Assembly: GCA_024399955.1 (NCBI GenBank)
Contig: JAKSNH010000011.1
Span: 1-64,000, forward strand
Source of the DNA: Paludibacteraceae bacterium
Lineage (GTDB): Bacteria; Bacteroidota; Bacteroidia; Bacteroidales; Paludibacteraceae
Length of the DNA stretch: 64,000 nucleotides
Direction: 5' to 3'
Part shown: in pieces, positions 23,592 through 31,976 of the stretch
How positions within the stretch are numbered: the first letter of the stretch is position 1
Layout: each line of letters begins with the position of its first letter
Notes under the pieces: generated by a model
What the model was told of the DNA's origin: nothing
The model's database searches: none
The model's input: the letters and a program-made list of their open reading frames with translations, nothing else
Program-made: the position numbers and the translations under genes

Positions 23592-25772
23592 ATGAGAAAA
23601 GTATGTTTATTATTTGCAGCCCTGACGCTGAGCGCAGGACTATGGGCATTGGACAATGTACGTTACATTGATGCCGATGGTCAAGAAAAAACGGTTCATA
23701 ATGTGACCGAAATCATAAACTCCTCCACTACATTGGACGCTGGTTGGTATGTGGTTAATGGTGCTGATGTACAAGCCGGCACACTCATTTGTAATGGAGA
23801 CATCCGCCTTATCCTTGCCGATGGGGCTAAACTGACTGCCACGGGGAAGGGTGATCCACATTTTACCCCTGGCATCCAAGTATCCGGTGAAACTAACTCC
23901 CTTACTATTTATGCGCAATCTACAGGCGAACAAGTGGGGCAACTAATAGCTAAAGGAGGGAAATGGGCTGCCGGTATTGGTGGTGGGAAAGGCGCTGATG
24001 GCAACAATATCACCATCAATGGCGGTAAAATTACGGCTACCGGTTACACAGCCGCCGGTATCGGTGGAGGTTATGGTGGCAACTGCTCCAACATTACCAT
24101 CAATGGCGGTACTGTGACGGCAACCGGTGGAGGACTTGGTGCCGGCATAGGTGGTGGAGATAGAGGTAATGGCTCTAACATCACCATCAATGGTGGTAAG
24201 GTTACAGCAAACGGAGGAGATTGTGCCTCTGGTATAGGTGGCGGAGATAGAGGTCTTGGTTCGAGCATCTTACTCAATGGTGGTACCATCACAGCAAATG
24301 GTGGAAATAATGCTGTCGCTATAGGAAATGGATACCAGGCTACAAAGGCCGCTTTTAATATCTTTGTATCCACTAAAGGTGTCGTGAAAGCCGGTACGAC
24401 TAAACCTCTTACTGACGACAATATTGTCAATCACACCTCCGCCGACGATATCGCAAACCTCTTGGTTGGTAAGCGATATGCAACAGTAGTTGGTCCGGCT
24501 ATGGTTCCCACTGCGTATATTGACGAGAATGGTGTGTCTCGCAATGTTGCTGCTTATATGGTTGCCGACTCTGCTTCTTCTGTTACTTGGGGCATAAAAG
24601 GTGAAAGCACTTGGTATGTAGTAAATGGTGCTGATGTGCAACTTGCTAAAGGTGCAATATGCCAAGGCGACGTCCGCCTCATCCTTGCCGATGGGGCTAA
24701 ACTCACCGCTATGGGATGGTTGGATGAAAGTATATATATGGGGTATGCCGGTATCCAAGTAGTTGGCGAAGACAACTCACTCACTATCTATGCTCAAGCC
24801 GCTCAATCCGGTCAGCTGATTGCTATCGGTGAATATGCTGCCGCTGGTATTGGTGGTAAATCTTCAGAAGCAGGTTCTAATATTACCATCAATGGTGGTA
24901 TGATTATAGCAACCGGTGGAAGGTTAGGTTCCGGTATTGGTGGAGGAGCGTATGGTTCTAGCTCTCAGAATATCATCATCAATGGTGGTACGGTTACTGC
25001 AATCGGTGGAGATTATGCTGCCGGTATCGCTGGAGGATATGGGTATTATGCTTCTGACGTTTATATCTCTGACGCGTATGTGCTCTACGCAGGCGCAAAC
25101 GAAACGCTGACAGATGATGACATCGTAACTCACTCTTCAGCTCAAGATTTGGGAATGACCTTGGCGGGACAACAATACGTGAAGATGGAGGGCTTAGCTA
25201 CTCCTTATACTCGCAGTATGACCATTGGTCAATGGGCTACCGTTTGCCTGCCCTACGCAGCGACTTATTTTGAAGGCGCTAATTTCTACAAAATCAATTA
25301 CTCCGATGGTGCAGGAAAACTCTATATCGAGGAAGTGGAAACCCTTGAGGCAGGTATGCCATACATCTTTGAAGCAACGGCAGAGACGGTTACTATCGAC
25401 CACGAAGATGCCACGTTAACTAATGGTGAAGAACAAACCGAACGTGGTCTGCACGGCTCATTCGCAAGAAAGGTTATTGAGTCCGATGGCAGCCAAGCCG
25501 CTATCTCCGGTGGGTCGGTTGTTGTCGCTGAGGAATATTCTACCATCACTATTCCCGCGTGTCGCGCGTATATTAATATGGAAGAAGTGCCTACGGTGTA
25601 TCAACCCACGTCCGCTCCTCTCCGTTGCATGGGTGTTCCGCGTGGACAAGCCACAGACAATCCATCATTGCATCATTCCATCAATTCATCATTTAAGATG
25701 ATTAAGGACGGTCAGCTCATCATCGTCAAAGATGGCAAGACCTACAATGTTGTAGGCATGGAAGTAAAATAA
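23592..25772 (+). CDS. Secreted beta-solenoid surface protein with sorting-like tail
   Basis: Exported protein of 726 residues; signal peptide MRKVCLLFAALTLSAGLWA. Two homologous halves (about 20-300 and 305-515) each open with a domain containing WYVVNGADVQ and ICxGDVRLILADGAKLTA, then run into short repeats of the type NITINGGxxTATG-GGxGxGIGGG, a Gly-rich right-handed beta-helix seen in carbohydrate-binding surface proteins. Residues ~540-690 are a beta domain common in secreted Bacteroidales proteins (IGQWATVCLPYAATYFEGANF). The end, KMIKDGQLIIVKDGKTY then NVVGMEVK, is the recurrent tail discussed in findings. Residues near 690-700 are encoded by a CATCATT-type microrepeat. Role unknown; adhesion or glycan binding is inferred. 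Confidence 0.8.
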   Translation: MRKVCLLFAALTLSAGLWALDNVRYIDADGQEKTVHNVTEIINSSTTLDAGWYVVNGADVQAGTLICNGDIRLILADGAKLTATGKGDPHFTPGIQVSGETNSLTIYAQSTGEQVGQLIAKGGKWAAGIGGGKGADGNNITINGGKITATGYTAAGIGGGYGGNCSNITINGGTVTATGGGLGAGIGGGDRGNGSNITINGGKVTANGGDCASGIGGGDRGLGSSILLNGGTITANGGNNAVAIGNGYQATKAAFNIFVSTKGVVKAGTTKPLTDDNIVNHTSADDIANLLVGKRYATVVGPAMVPTAYIDENGVSRNVAAYMVADSASSVTWGIKGESTWYVVNGADVQLAKGAICQGDVRLILADGAKLTAMGWLDESIYMGYAGIQVVGEDNSLTIYAQAAQSGQLIAIGEYAAAGIGGKSSEAGSNITINGGMIIATGGRLGSGIGGGAYGSSSQNIIINGGTVTAIGGDYAAGIAGGYGYYASDVYISDAYVLYAGANETLTDDDIVTHSSAQDLGMTLAGQQYVKMEGLATPYTRSMTIGQWATVCLPYAATYFEGANFYKINYSDGAGKLYIEEVETLEAGMPYIFEATAETVTIDHEDATLTNGEEQTERGLHGSFARKVIESDGSQAAISGGSVVVAEEYSTITIPACRAYINMEEVPTVYQPTSAPLRCMGVPRGQATDNPSLHHSINSSFKMIKDGQLIIVKDGKTYNVVGMEVK

Positions 25773-25947: not shown

Positions 25948-25992
25948 AAAAACAAGAGAAAAGCGCATTCGGTGCGCTTTTCTTGTTTTTCA
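25948..25992 (+). terminator. Strong rho-independent terminator
   Basis: A long stem (GAAAAGCGCA pairing TGCGCTTTTC, plus ACAA/TTGT beyond a 2-nt bulge) with loop TTCGG, ending in a T run. Ends the beta-solenoid/peptide transcript. Confidence 0.9.
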
Positions 25993-26141: not shown

Positions 26142-26345
26142 TCTGCAACCCTGCGAGGACTATCCGTAACCTATGCTGCTACTTTTTGTTCTTCAGATTG
26201 TCTGTTTTCTCATGTCCCTTCTCGACAATGTCCCCATCGCCGTTCCCGTCCCGTCCATTTCCGGCGATACCATCGCCGTCTTACAGTGTCTCTTCTTTGA
26301 GAACGGCATTCTCCATTCTCATTTTTCAATTTTCCATTCAAAAAG

Positions 26346-26377
26346 TTTGCATATTCCAAAAATTCTTTGTAATTTTG
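26346..26377 (+). promoter_or_regulatory. Promoter of the structured RNA
   Basis: TTTG 26346-26349, 20 bp, TAATTTTG 26370-26377. The 34 bases from 26346 are identical to those from 31907. Confidence 0.85.
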
Positions 26378-26383
26378 CACTTG

Positions 26384-26674
26384 AATTCCACGCTGGAGGG
26401 GATTATGTCTCTTTACGGGGTGGGGTTCAGACATAATAAAAGGCGTTTACTGACGCTTGTTCTTGACATCTGGAATCTCGCAAGTTTCATTCACAATCAA
26501 GAATAAGACAAAGGTAGATGTTCATGGGGAATATCCCTTAATTGGTTGTACCATCTTGGTATGCCGATTAGTTCGCATATTCCAGCGTGAGATTCTACGT
26601 TGTCATTCTTTTGTGAAGGTTATGCGAGATACCTCAGATGTGGAATGACAATGGTAAGGATTCCACGCTTTTTT
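26384..26674 (+). ncRNA. Candidate structured RNA or long leader (about 290 nt)
   Basis: A promoter ends at 26377 and a terminator-like hairpin (GTGGAAT 26640-26646 with ATTCCAC 26660-26666, then GC and six T) ends at 26674. In between: a 9-bp perfect stem 26402-26410/26429-26437; a long-range helix ACATCT-GG-ATCTCGCA (26466-26482) with TGCGAGAT-CC-AGATGT (26623-26641), 16 pairs; and a TACCA/TGGTA hairpin near 26550. There is no convincing ORF. It could be a free-standing RNA (6S-like architecture is conceivable) or an attenuated leader of the gene at 26719. I recognise no Rfam family by eye. Confidence 0.5.
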
Positions 26675-26675
26675 G

Positions 26676-26718
26676 TTGTACCCTGCTTGGCGGAATTCAC
26701 GAGCAAAAAAACAACACT
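26676..26718 (+). promoter_or_regulatory. Leader hairpin, cassette copy 1
   Basis: TTGTACC, then GCTTG 26685-26689 pairing CGAGC 26700-26704 around a 10-nt loop GCGGAATTCA, then an A-rich run to the ATG. A near-identical element lies at 30342-30388. Confidence 0.6.
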
Positions 26719-27582
26719 ATGTTAGAAAATCAACCGAATGTTCCAAAGTGGATTGAGATATTGCTCAATTACGAAGACACCCAGGAGAAAGGAAACGAGT
26801 TGCGAACTCTGTTTCAAGAAAATCCATCTCTCACAGATTTTTCTGTAACAAAACAAAAGTTGCAGAAATTATTTCAATTTACGCACAATGGTTCTGCCCA
26901 ACATAGAGTGGACGTTATTGCCCGTGGTATAATTGAAATTAACAACATTGACCAACGTATTGAAAAAGGAGATCAAACAATTGTACAAGATATCTGTCGA
27001 GTTTTTGCGAATTGTTATGGGAGGACGAATTATATAACGCATTCACAGTTGTCCAATGTTTTACAACTATGCGCTCTGCACCAGCCTGATAAGTTTGCAG
27101 AATTTGATAATATTGTTAATCTTTTTCTAAAGCATAACGACAATGTTCTTCCAAAGCACCTTAATTTGCAAATAGTTGGGGATGTAGTGCAAACGATTAA
27201 TGATTTATATTTTAGCATTCGCAAATTTTGCGTTGATGAAACTAATCTTTCGAATCTTGACATTAAGAACCGTTTATATGATATTGCGCTATCAGTTGCT
27301 ATTATTCTTACAGACCCTTGCAATGTTAATAATTTAAGCGCATTAACAATTGATGTTACAAACATTGCTGTGCAATTAGGAGCAGATTATGCATGTTTGC
27401 ATGGAGCTCCAATTCCAAATTGGCTTATATTCTTAATTCAACGGCTGATAAACATTCTTAAACCCGAAATTCAGCATTGTTTACGGCAACATACAGATAA
27501 TTGGCATCAGCAATTAATAACCAAGCGTGCCAAATTGCGTCAACAATACAATATTAACCCTAATAACAATTTACAATTATGA
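26719..27582 (+). CDS. Hypothetical helical cytoplasmic protein, cassette copy 1 first gene
   Basis: Protein of 287 residues with no signal peptide and no membrane helix; mostly predicted helix (for example NELRTLFQENPSL, QRIEKGDQTIVQDICRVFANCYG, PNWLIFLIQRLINILKPEI). I recognise no domain. The ATG at 26719 is chosen because the upstream in-frame Met lies in the terminator-like hairpin. The stop overlaps the next ATG (ATGA). Its last residues, NINPNNNLQ, are encoded by the linker that recurs as non-coding DNA at 30661-30690. AT-rich, unlike core genes. Confidence 0.65.
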   Translation: MLENQPNVPKWIEILLNYEDTQEKGNELRTLFQENPSLTDFSVTKQKLQKLFQFTHNGSAQHRVDVIARGIIEINNIDQRIEKGDQTIVQDICRVFANCYGRTNYITHSQLSNVLQLCALHQPDKFAEFDNIVNLFLKHNDNVLPKHLNLQIVGDVVQTINDLYFSIRKFCVDETNLSNLDIKNRLYDIALSVAIILTDPCNVNNLSALTIDVTNIAVQLGADYACLHGAPIPNWLIFLIQRLINILKPEIQHCLRQHTDNWHQQLITKRAKLRQQYNINPNNNLQL

Positions 27583-27596
27583 AAACAAAACTTTTA
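27551..27596 (+). repeat. Intergenic linker repeat, copy 1
   Basis: 46 bp repeated at 30661-30706 with one mismatch (ATATTAACCC here, ATATTAACTC there). It spans the end of the first gene, AATTTACAATT and the start ATGAAAACAAAACTTTTA of the secreted-protein gene. Confidence 0.9.
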
Positions 27597-30323
27597 ACTT
27601 TATTATGTACACTAATGTGTGCAGGACAATTATTCGCATTCGATTTTAAAGAAGATGGCATCTTCTATAATAAAATAGGCGGTGATAGTGTGGCTGTTAC
27701 ATACGCAATAAGCTATGACTATAATAGTTATTCTGGTTCTGTCACTATTCCTGAGACAGTAACATATTTAGACACTACATATCGAGTCACAACAATTGGA
27801 AATTCTGCTTTCCGTAGTTGCAGCGGTTTGACTTCGGTAACTATCCCCAATTCTGTCACAGAGATTGGACTTGTTGCTTTTTATAATTGCAGCGATTTGA
27901 AAAAAACCAACTATACCGGTACTATTGCAGATTGGTGCAAGATAAATTTTGCAAGTTCTTACGAGGGTTGTTTTTCTAATCCAATGTATTATAGTCATAA
28001 TTTCTATATCAACGATGGGGAAGTAAAAGATTTAGTTATTCCTGAAGGTGTAGAAGCGATTGGAGATCTTGCTTTCTACAAATGCAGCGGTTTGACCTCG
28101 GTAACTATTGGTAATTCAGTCACAACGATTGGAGATGGGGCTTTCGGTGGTTGCACAAATTTGAGAACCGTATATAATAACTCTAACTTAAATATTGTAA
28201 AGGGTTCAACGGATAATGGTTGTGTTGCATATTATGCTTTAAATGTGTATAATGGCATACTTGTAGGAGATTTTATTATAAAACACGATACATTACTGAC
28301 AGCATATTTTGGGGGAGGAGGAGATATAATCATTCCCGATGGCATCAAGCAAATTGGGAATAAGGTCTTCGACGGTCGTTCCGATTTGACCTCTGTAACG
28401 ATTCCCAATTCTGTTACAACGATTGGAGATGATGCTTTCTATAAATGCACTGGTTTGACCTCGGTAACTATTCCCAATTCTGTTACAACGATTGGAGAGT
28501 ATGCTTTTTGTGGATGTATCAACTTGGAAGAAGTAAAGGGTTGCCAAAATGTTGCAGAAATGGGTAGCGGTGTATTTGCAAATACATTATGGTATTTAGA
28601 CCAACCGGATGGTGTGTTATATATAGGAAAGGTTGCATATACGTATAAAGGTGATATGCCCAAGAATACACATATTATCATAAAAGATGGAACGTTGGGA
28701 ATTGCCTCAAGTGCTTTCTATGGTTGCAAAGGTTTGACCTCTGTAACTATTCCTAATTCTGTCACAACGATTGGAGAGAATGCTTTCTGTTGGTGCACCG
28801 ATTTGACATCAGTAACGATTGGCAATTCCGTTACAACGATTGGAGAGAATGCTTTCGCTTATTGCACGGGCTTGACTTCGGTGGAGATTCCTAATTCTGT
28901 CACATCAATTGAGAAGGAGGCTTTCTATGGTTGCAGCGGTTTGACATCAGTGACTATTCCTAATTCTGTTACATCAATTGAGAAGGAGGCTTTTTATAAT
29001 TGCTATGGTTTGATCTCGGTAACTATTGGTAATTCCGTCACAACGATTGGAAATAAGGCTTTCTATGGTTGCAGCGGTTTGAAAAAGACTAACTATATCG
29101 GTACCGTTACAGATTGGTGCAAGATAAGTTTTAATGATTCTACTGCAAACCCAATATTATATAGTCATAATTTTTTCATCAATGATGCAGAGGTGAAAAA
29201 ATTAATTATTCCTGAAGATGTAAAATCAATCGGCAGTTATGCTTTCTATGGTTGCAGCGGTTTGGCATCAGTAACGATTGGCAATTCCGTTACATCGATT
29301 GGATATAATGCTTTTCAGGGTTGTAATGGTTTGACATCAGTGACTATTGGCAATTCCGTTACATCAATTGGAGGTGGTGCTTTCCGTGGTTGCATCGGTT
29401 TGACATCAGTGACTATTCCTAATTCCGTCACATCGATTGGATGGTATGCTTTCTATGATTGCAGTGGGCTAACTTCGGTAACGATTAATTCCAATGCAAT
29501 ATGTAGTAGAAACGATTATGATGGTAGAATAAATTTTAGCTTTGGGAGTCAAGTGCCGGAGTATATCCTAGGAATTTCTGTGACAACGATTGGAACTCAA
29601 GCTTTCGCAGGATGCAGCGGTTTGACCTCGGTAACTATACCATCTTCTGTCACGGCGATTGGGAGTAATGCGTTCAATAATTGTACAAACTTAAAGAAGA
29701 TAGTTTGTGAAATAGAAAAACCATTAGCAATTTCGGACAAAGTTTTCAGTACATATAGTGGCATTTTATATGTCCCTGCCAAAGGTGTTAATCGGTATAA
29801 ATTGGCAGAGGTATGGAAAAATTTCAAAACGATTCTTCTTATTCAGGCAGAGGAGGTGATAGTAACTGAAACACAAGTTAATCCATCTGCTAATATTGTT
29901 TCTATTGCTTGGCGTGCTGTAGAGAATGCATATAATTATATTATCGTCATCAAACAAGGTGAAGATACGATATGCAAATTGACATTTAATGCAGAAGGAC
30001 AATTAGTAACGTCACAGTATTATGCTCCACAAAGAGCACAGTTGTTGACATCAACTACGGATGCAGAACAAACGGCTACCGGCTGGCGTTATGTTATACG
30101 AGATTTGGAGCCTGGCACAGAATATACATATAGTATTGTCGCGTATGATGAAACGGATAATGTTATAGATTCCCAATCCGGCACGTTCCGTACACTATTG
30201 CCCTCAGGACTGGAAAATTTGACTATAGACAGAAAAGTAGGCAACAAATTCATCTATGGCAATCAGTTGTACATCCGCCATAATGGCAACCTCTTCACCG
30301 CCACCGGCGCAAGAGTGAAGTAA
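27579..30323 (+). CDS. BspA-like leucine-rich repeat (LRR_5) surface protein
   Basis: Secreted protein of 914 residues. Signal peptide ends GQLFA. More than fifteen treponemal-type repeats of the form GLTSVTIPNSVTTIGxxAFxGCS fill residues ~60-720, interrupted by two homologous inserts beginning KKTNYxGTxxDWCKI (27897-28065 and 29080-29245) and by regions without repeats. Residues ~740-880 look like a fibronectin-type domain (VNPSANIVSIAWRAVENAYNY, ATGWRYVIRDLEPGTEYTYSI). The tail GNKFIYGNQLYIRHNGNLF then TATGARVK matches the recurrent C-terminal tail. BspA proteins act in adhesion; ligand unknown here. High DNA-level repetition makes repeat-number change likely. Confidence 0.92.
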   Translation: MKTKLLTLLCTLMCAGQLFAFDFKEDGIFYNKIGGDSVAVTYAISYDYNSYSGSVTIPETVTYLDTTYRVTTIGNSAFRSCSGLTSVTIPNSVTEIGLVAFYNCSDLKKTNYTGTIADWCKINFASSYEGCFSNPMYYSHNFYINDGEVKDLVIPEGVEAIGDLAFYKCSGLTSVTIGNSVTTIGDGAFGGCTNLRTVYNNSNLNIVKGSTDNGCVAYYALNVYNGILVGDFIIKHDTLLTAYFGGGGDIIIPDGIKQIGNKVFDGRSDLTSVTIPNSVTTIGDDAFYKCTGLTSVTIPNSVTTIGEYAFCGCINLEEVKGCQNVAEMGSGVFANTLWYLDQPDGVLYIGKVAYTYKGDMPKNTHIIIKDGTLGIASSAFYGCKGLTSVTIPNSVTTIGENAFCWCTDLTSVTIGNSVTTIGENAFAYCTGLTSVEIPNSVTSIEKEAFYGCSGLTSVTIPNSVTSIEKEAFYNCYGLISVTIGNSVTTIGNKAFYGCSGLKKTNYIGTVTDWCKISFNDSTANPILYSHNFFINDAEVKKLIIPEDVKSIGSYAFYGCSGLASVTIGNSVTSIGYNAFQGCNGLTSVTIGNSVTSIGGGAFRGCIGLTSVTIPNSVTSIGWYAFYDCSGLTSVTINSNAICSRNDYDGRINFSFGSQVPEYILGISVTTIGTQAFAGCSGLTSVTIPSSVTAIGSNAFNNCTNLKKIVCEIEKPLAISDKVFSTYSGILYVPAKGVNRYKLAEVWKNFKTILLIQAEEVIVTETQVNPSANIVSIAWRAVENAYNYIIVIKQGEDTICKLTFNAEGQLVTSQYYAPQRAQLLTSTTDAEQTATGWRYVIRDLEPGTEYTYSIVAYDETDNVIDSQSGTFRTLLPSGLENLTIDRKVGNKFIYGNQLYIRHNGNLFTATGARVK

Positions 30324-31906: not shown

Positions 31907-31938
31907 TTTGCATATTCCAAAAATTCTTTGTAATTTTG
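31907..31938 (+). promoter_or_regulatory. Promoter of the ATPase gene
   Basis: TTTG 31907-31910, 20 bp, TAATTTTG 31931-31938; identical to the promoter at 26346 over 34 bases. Confidence 0.85.
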
Positions 31939-31976
31939 CAGTCTGAAATGTTGGAAAAACGGACATTTTGATTTAT

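Follow-up and report, generated by a model that had tools for sequence, protein, structure and literature searches.

An RNA of the forward strand, encoded at positions 26383-26674 of the window, i.e. of the 64,000-nucleotide stretch of Paludibacteraceae DNA analysed here, belongs to a structured RNA family that appears to be new. Our work supports, with moderate confidence, the idea that this RNA is the 5' leader of the downstream operon and that it acts in cis as a transcription attenuator without a leader peptide: The leader RNA probably decides on the transcription of the gene behind it, by a mechanism that appears to be a variant of attenuation. The family, its strand and its cis position were computed, as were the complementarity and covariation of its pairings and the near-equal energies of two folds in subfamily B. 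The first downstream gene (26719-27582, forward strand) encodes a protein of 287 amino acids from an ATG at 26719 without a Pfam match, and the next one (27579-30323) a BspA-type LRR protein.

The window copy has the outline that the sequence-only reading had drawn. A promoter had been claimed ahead of the RNA, and TTTG (26346-26349) and TAATTTTG (26370-26377) are indeed present on the forward strand; we take 26346-26377 to be a Bacteroidetes-type promoter (TTTG / TAnnTTTG), based on the sequence and on the same position and spacing in paralogues with unrelated flanks. A generic sigma-70 scan did not list this promoter. The fold energy of the window copy is -107.2 kcal/mol as compared to -73.4 (sd 4.4) for 200 dinucleotide shuffles (z -7.67); for the opposite strand, it is -75.5 kcal/mol (z -4.45). 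The predicted perfect stem of nine base pairs was found at 26402-26410 / 26429-26437 and forms a 5' hairpin (26402-26437) that is kept in the paralogues, and the long-range helix 26466-26482 / 26623-26641, described as 16 pairs, comprises 8 + 8 pairs in the minimum-energy fold. At the 3' end, the anticipated hairpin (GTGGAAT, 26640-26646; ATTCCAC, 26660-26666) and T-run (26669-26674) are in place; the terminator scan, which accepts loops of up to 8 nt, missed the hairpin at 26640-26666, presumably on account of its 13-nt loop. The proposed Rfam covariance scan yielded no match at the gathering score among 4227 families, and the stretch contains neither a tmRNA nor a tRNA, in agreement with the suggested absence of tmRNA, RNase P and SRP RNA. 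A lax Rfam scan gave sub-threshold matches only; Spd-sr07, psRNA6 and RFPL3-AS1_2 were rejected since they are far under the gathering score. A retron or diversity-generating element was also rejected, as no reverse transcriptase (PF00078) match was found in the own genome of the window (three of 14 controls were positive). Mechanical ORFs run across the stretch. Further upstream, a gene that ends at 25772 is followed by a strong hairpin that resembles a bidirectional terminator and is flanked by T-runs (25956-25984).

Relatives of the RNA are widespread in the order. BLAST and an exact 20-nt core suggested an element restricted to the genus: The core is present in 84 of the 151 genus genomes, and the own genome is the sole one with it in a sample of 295 from the order. 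This restriction was rejected, as a covariance model finds relatives across families. The model, R1, covers 99 positions of the 5' half and uses the tool's own consensus of 13 pairs, so that it rests mostly on sequence; it matches the window at 26439-26536 with 91.4 bits. Within the family, R1 detected relatives in 20 of 33 genera (34 of 61 genomes). Of 149 genomes from the order, 17 had a match at E <= 0.001, two of them from the own family and a few with weak matches; locus inspection confirmed the layout in ten further Bacteroidales families. Across the phylum, R1 at E <= 1e-5 matched one of 296 genomes, the own one, and none of the 295 others (two other listed genomes are of the same order). 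Among the matches listed, most named records with the RNA come from Paludibacteraceae or from uncultured Bacteroidales of the rumen and gut. An unannotated copy (72% identity over 86% of the 283-nt query) is present on plasmids of Phocaeicola dorei and P. vulgatus, with a hypothetical protein beginning 64 nt past the match; for another query, 20% of the length is matched by a plasmid of Bacteroides finegoldii. The RNA is also present on the viral-collection contigs L216, L217 (IMG/VR, 85,676 bases) and L219; it lies ahead of a GTPase resembling an elongation factor in L217, and ahead of a gene seemingly related to that of L181 in L216.

For the comparative analyses, at least 113 pattern stretches were collected, and 110 near copies remained after the exclusion of one chance match in a Clostridia record and two stretches with the start of the element only (L061, L075 and L088). 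The near-copy alignments required a terminal CGC and T-run, present in 92 of the 110 copies, and several of the other 18 are cut by the locus end; alignment A3 contains 37 and A4 69 sequences, including 14 own copies. A distant set of 40 loci was picked from the R1 matches, and 34 of them entered alignment A7. The T-run filter removed L192 and L215, which are apparently short but intact, L176 and L209 with a terminal T-rich or CGC end, the divergent L207, and L190, which has no clear T-run. In the short versions L192 and L215 (~170-200 nt), most of the apical part is missing and the layout is kept. An Rfam scan of 20 distant loci revealed a single tRNA and nothing else.

For the window RNA and its relatives, two global folds are predicted, namely a rod of 220 nt and a two-hairpin form, and each of them is supported by covariation and by fold-preserving shuffles. 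All energies were computed at equilibrium, with neither pseudoknots nor kinetics. In the absence of constraints, 66 of 69 type A copies and 18 of 37 type B copies have the rod as their minimum-energy fold. When the folds were constrained, the two-hairpin form and the rod of type B had mean energies of -85.8 and -85.3 kcal/mol, and 27 of 35 sequences had both within 5 kcal/mol (two of the 37 were dropped since the pattern missed their mid strand). For type A, the respective means are -77.1 and -87.3, and for the distant set -91.3 and -98.8. Type A thus favours the rod by about 10 kcal/mol, and the two folds are not equally stable in all copies. When the rod was preserved in shuffling, the two-hairpin energy was lost in type B (-62.9 observed against -33.6; reached in 0 of 2100) as well as in type A (-56.0 against -32.2; 1 of 4140), and shuffles that keep the two-hairpin form reached the rod energy in 0 of 216 and 0 of 240 cases. 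We can therefore conclude that each fold stands on its own and does not simply follow from the other.

Covariation points in the same direction. For the rod, 28 pairs in A3 (37 sequences) contain 213 doubly changed cells as compared to a shuffled mean of 78 (0 of 500 shuffles, which keep relatedness), and versions slid along A3, over which the tested structures have the advantage of being derived from folding the A3 and A7 sequences themselves, reach 63 cells at most. The two-hairpin form has 25 cells in 11 pairs against 11.8 (0 of 500). In A3, pairing reaches 98-99% in its helices 1, 7 and 8, where the changes are mostly from G-C or A-U to G-U. In the 34 distant sequences of A7, the rod has 277 cells in 47 pairs against 108 (0 of 500) and the two-hairpin form 118 cells in 34 pairs against 51. 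The variable helices (N8, b and c) pair chiefly in the rod, and both folds make use of the conserved segments. Conserved pairing in comparative alignments, on which the sequence-only reading had staked its candidate, is thus borne out by A3 and A7. The RNAalifold structure of the first 14 copies was mixed and was set aside.

How these folds map onto the window copy can be read along the RNA. The 5' half (26439-26520) forms either hairpin I (seg1:seg2, S1:S2) in the two-hairpin fold or the 5' strand of the rod; its segments are seg1 (26442-26452), S1 (26456-26466), N8 (26467-26472), b (26474-26482), S2 (26497-26507) and seg2 (26513-26520). In the minimum-energy fold, the apical hairpin of the rod follows (26521-26581), which is variable among the copies. 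Behind the mid strand, the 3' half (26599-26654) forms either hairpin II (mid:T3, S3:S4) or the 3' strand of the rod, with the segments S3 (26599-26609), b' (26623-26629), N8' (26635-26640) and S4 (26642-26654).

Four strands, all on the forward strand, suggest an attenuator. The first, P0 (26383-26396), is the 5' end of the RNA and begins about six nt past the -7 box; it is complementary to the second, the mid strand (26582-26595), with a duplex energy of -18.0 kcal/mol and would serve as the antiterminator strand. The partner of the mid strand is either P0 or the terminator arm T3 (26658-26669), the third strand, which is part of the intrinsic-terminator-like end (26640-26674) with its local stem and the U-run. 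The fourth, PT (26685-26704), is a post-terminator hairpin GCTTG-GCGGAATTCA-CGAGC whose loop is complementary to T3 (-10.5 kcal/mol). In 59 near copies, the P0:mid duplex has a mean energy of -16.1 kcal/mol with the own partner, -14.2 across copies and -10.6 after shuffling, and the own partner beats the cross partner in 46 of them; in 28 distant copies, the values are -15.35 and -12.98 (20 of 28). Pairing that has changed but is kept can be seen in L213 (CCAGCTAGCC with GGCTAGCTG) and L178 (CTGAAAGCCCAC with GTGGGGCTTTCA). The computed P0:mid duplex is weak in L017 and L026 (-7.9 and -7.0), two copies with a long 5' domain of which the first 60 nt alone were tested. The competing mid:T3 helix is paired in 99.0% of the cells in A3 (helix 7) and in 93.9% in A7 (helix 5). 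Thus, P0:mid and mid:T3 are mutually exclusive pairings of the antiterminator type that are supported by covariation. The T3:PT loop duplex of the distant set is stronger with the own partner (-12.5) than across copies (-9.65) or after shuffling (-8.4), and own beats cross in 30 of 34 cases. Moreover, a promoter lies upstream, and the terminator-like hairpin with its U-run lies ahead of the first codon: The eight nt after the terminal CGC contain on average 6.1 T in the 92 near copies, which were selected for a T-run (background T 28%). The T-runs vary, and some copies have CTTTGTTTT or CTTGCTTTT.

We suggest that the leader RNA works as follows. Transcription would start at about 26383, and the 5' half would fold first as hairpin I. 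Once the mid strand has been made, P0, the 5' end of the same RNA, could seize it and thereby block mid:T3. If P0:mid fails or is displaced, the mid strand would pair with T3 to form hairpin II, or the entire RNA would zip into the rod; either structure would present a stem abutting the U-run, and RNA polymerase would halt ahead of the gene. Once the polymerase has passed the U-run, the PT hairpin may capture the T3 arm. This layout follows the classical 1-2-3-4 logic of attenuators, with 1:2 and 3:4 opposed to 2:3. Termination at the U-run, read-through, a regulated balance between the two and the direction of each step are what we infer. When growing prefixes of the window copy were folded at equilibrium, hairpin I was present by ~120-204 nt; P0:mid appeared at a length of 216 nt, and from 252 nt onwards the RNA folded as the rod. 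Since the end of the rod likewise adjoins the U-run, it is not obvious which fold permits read-through.

As to the trigger, a protein, or the speed or pausing of the polymerase, seems likelier than a small ligand. Pairing accounts for most conserved positions, which makes a small ligand less likely. A riboswitch would be expected to have a conserved aptamer-like core that pairing leaves unexplained and a single metabolic theme downstream; in the leader RNA, the majority of the conserved segments take part in at least one of the two folds, and the downstream genes are diverse. A ribosome-mediated attenuator was rejected: ORFs of at least eight codons are present in 84 of 91 leaders, 85.8 are expected from shuffles, and the peptides differ, so that leader ORFs are not enriched. 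It is tempting to speculate, as a decidedly tentative proposal, that this order-wide leader without aptamer or leader peptide is a self-timed branch-migration switch. Two homologous hairpins (X-X'-X-X') might swap strands via a four-way junction during synthesis, accessory genes for surface adhesins, capsule and phage defence throughout Bacteroidales and their plasmids might have their on/off fraction set by the race of the RNA's own 5' end against the terminator arm, and the copy-specific helices might prevent cross-pairing among a dozen paralogues.

The genes behind the RNA are one reason to consider processive antitermination, as by the HK022 put RNA or the EAR of epsC. Here, the nascent RNA would bind the polymerase and enable it to pass later terminators in long accessory operons, and the terminal U-run would be a pause site or the first terminator that is overcome. 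The 88 downstream proteins of the near set include 17 BspA LRR_5 proteins, seven glycosyltransferases of family 2, four GtrA, three DegT, three MBOAT, two GLF and two FdtA proteins, and PADLOC matches are few; in the distant set we found, among others, one each of a DNA methylase, a protein kinase, an HSP70 and a PAPS-reductase-domain protein (BrxP, E 8.8e-273), as well as TerY and a PLD/SNF2 helicase. Ten distant-set proteins, among them BrxP, TerY and the methyltransferase, were hand-picked as likely defence proteins and do not give a rate. Long repeat proteins, glycosyltransferases, GtrA, DegT and GLF are of the sort controlled by RfaH, UpxY or EAR elements, and the presence of BrxP, TerY and the methyltransferase, the near-invariant sequence of several segments and a single NusG-family match without a UpxY or RfaH paralogue in the own genome fit processive antitermination as well. 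On the other hand, the two-fold pairing explains most conserved segments, the conserved terminator-like end and the PT hairpin suggest a local decision, and epsC and JUMPstart were unmatched in the Rfam scans of the window and the 20 distant loci. We therefore regard this explanation as improbable, though as the strongest of the rivals. Control of the UpxY/RfaH type itself was rejected on the basis of the single NusG-family match, in a search of the own genome.

The position of the RNA relative to the genes bears on whether it is a leader at all. A stand-alone small RNA family acting in trans, with its own promoter and terminator and ahead of genes by chance, would account for the flanking promoter and terminator and for many paralogues with variable helices, and a terminated leader could act in trans too. 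However, with genes called by a simple script that takes the longest ORFs, the next gene is co-oriented in 88 of 94 listed near copies and 37 of 40 distant ones, the previous gene in 69 of 99 listed near copies, and if the upstream gene is opposed, the next gene is still co-oriented in 26 of 27 near and 12 of 12 distant cases. The pattern used recognised no promoter in 40 of 110 listed near copies, or in about 35 if the cases whose upstream gene is opposed or unknown are left aside; 30 of the 40 lie behind a co-oriented gene. In the promoterless copies behind co-oriented genes, P0 may be missing, and the RNA may act between genes within an operon. Both co-orientation and promoterless copies between co-oriented genes argue against a stand-alone RNA, as does the T3:PT pairing that is conserved past the T-run. 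In L055, the gene start abuts the U-run (CCGCGTTTTTATG), which leaves no space for a second promoter. A stand-alone small RNA or 6S RNA is thus not favoured, and we consider the former unlikely. Of the three identities offered by the sequence-only reading, the regulatory leader of the cassette downstream gains support from the co-orientation and from conserved pairing that extends beyond the T-run into a hairpin ahead of the start codon; the unlisted small RNA stands as far as its absence from Rfam is concerned but explains neither co-orientation nor promoterless copies; and the 6S-type RNA falls, with no 6S match in the Rfam scans and about 15 copies per genome as compared to the usual one or few. 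It is similarly unlikely that the RNA is an element of mRNA processing or stability, with RNase III cutting the rod and thereby setting the 5' end and lifetime of the message, or with PT controlling translation: The long perfect stretches of the rod and the PT hairpin shortly before the start codon would suit such a role, but the alternative fold, P0:mid and the U-run would be left unexplained.

The own genome contains about 14-15 copies of the RNA; the aligned copies keep promoter, RNA and T-run, and their flanks are unrelated. BLAST of 26340-26720 gave 44 matches, many of which share promoter-like sequence only, a profile search identified 11 strong and four divergent copies (L030, L017, L026 and L036), and R1 had 17 matches, the weakest of them close to the threshold. 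Dispersed copies with unrelated flanks and up to 89% identity over the full element would also be expected for a MITE-like mobile repeat that spreads with its promoter and whose pairing reflects DNA palindromes, but this is very improbable given that G-U replaces G-C throughout, that the opposite strand folds much worse, that changes are compensatory and that the orientation to genes is fixed.

Some neighbouring sequences recur as well. The 34-nt promoter sequence of the RNA (TTTGCATATTCC...TAATTTTGCA) has an identical counterpart without the RNA at 31907-31940 of the window and close matches at about 25 other places of the own genome, an unusual conservation for a promoter. A motif GCCGAAAATCC-N6-GAGTAGGC, with the look of a small pseudoknot, occurs eight times in the own genome (C1:122615, C1:281704, C1:297792, C18:132907 and four more sites), never in the window, and lies between an RNA copy and a start codon in four of the eight cases. 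Another motif, GTTGCGCCCGACAC, recurs 3' of the T-run and a short distance ahead of the start codons in L008, L069, L071 and L076. L017 (C6) and L026 (C1) of the own genome have a different 5' domain of ~150 nt between promoter and core, with a CGTCA-loop-TGACGTTAAA hairpin that is also found ahead of several promoterless copies.

Taken together, many genera of a dominant gut order have an uncatalogued structured RNA family, some genomes with over ten copies, that marks genes for surface structures, polysaccharides and phage defence. It provides a natural case of a 220-nt RNA with conserved segments that serve two folds and, if it is an attenuator, would show how these bacteria gate accessory genes in the absence of a dedicated NusG paralogue. 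The copies on plasmids of cultured P. dorei and P. vulgatus make the leader RNA testable. The available text of the open-licence literature, including PMC2864571, PMC7366714, PMC7819879 and PMC2965389, contains no description of the leader RNA (in PMC2965389, Bacteroidetes are not mentioned), and an earlier one is possible.

Comparison with known systems places the leader RNA close to several of them. Bacteroidales-1, Bacteroides-1, Bacteroid-trp and 6S-flavo are, according to the available text of PMC2864571, structured RNAs of Bacteroidetes discovered by comparative genomics; none of them matches the window or the 20 distant loci at the gathering score. The epsC/EAR, JUMPstart/ops and HK022 put elements (for put, the available text of PMC9378689) are likewise cis-acting RNA or DNA elements before long accessory operons, but the leader RNA ends in a terminator-like hairpin and has no epsC or JUMPstart match in Rfam. 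In the capsule operons of Bacteroides, transcription terminates prematurely in UpxY-controlled leaders ahead of surface-polysaccharide genes (available text of PMC7819879); in contrast, the own genome has one NusG-family match, the leader RNA is also found before adhesin, defence and other genes, and no upxY-like first gene is among the downstream families listed. Attenuators, be they classical ones of the trp/ilv kind or controlled by protein or RNA, resemble the leader RNA in their four strands pairing as 1:2, 2:3 and 3:4 and in a terminator before the first gene. The leader RNA differs from them in that it has no leader peptide as judged by the shuffle test, that its 220-nt body re-folds, that strand 4 lies beyond the terminator, and that it precedes many unrelated accessory genes rather than those of one pathway.
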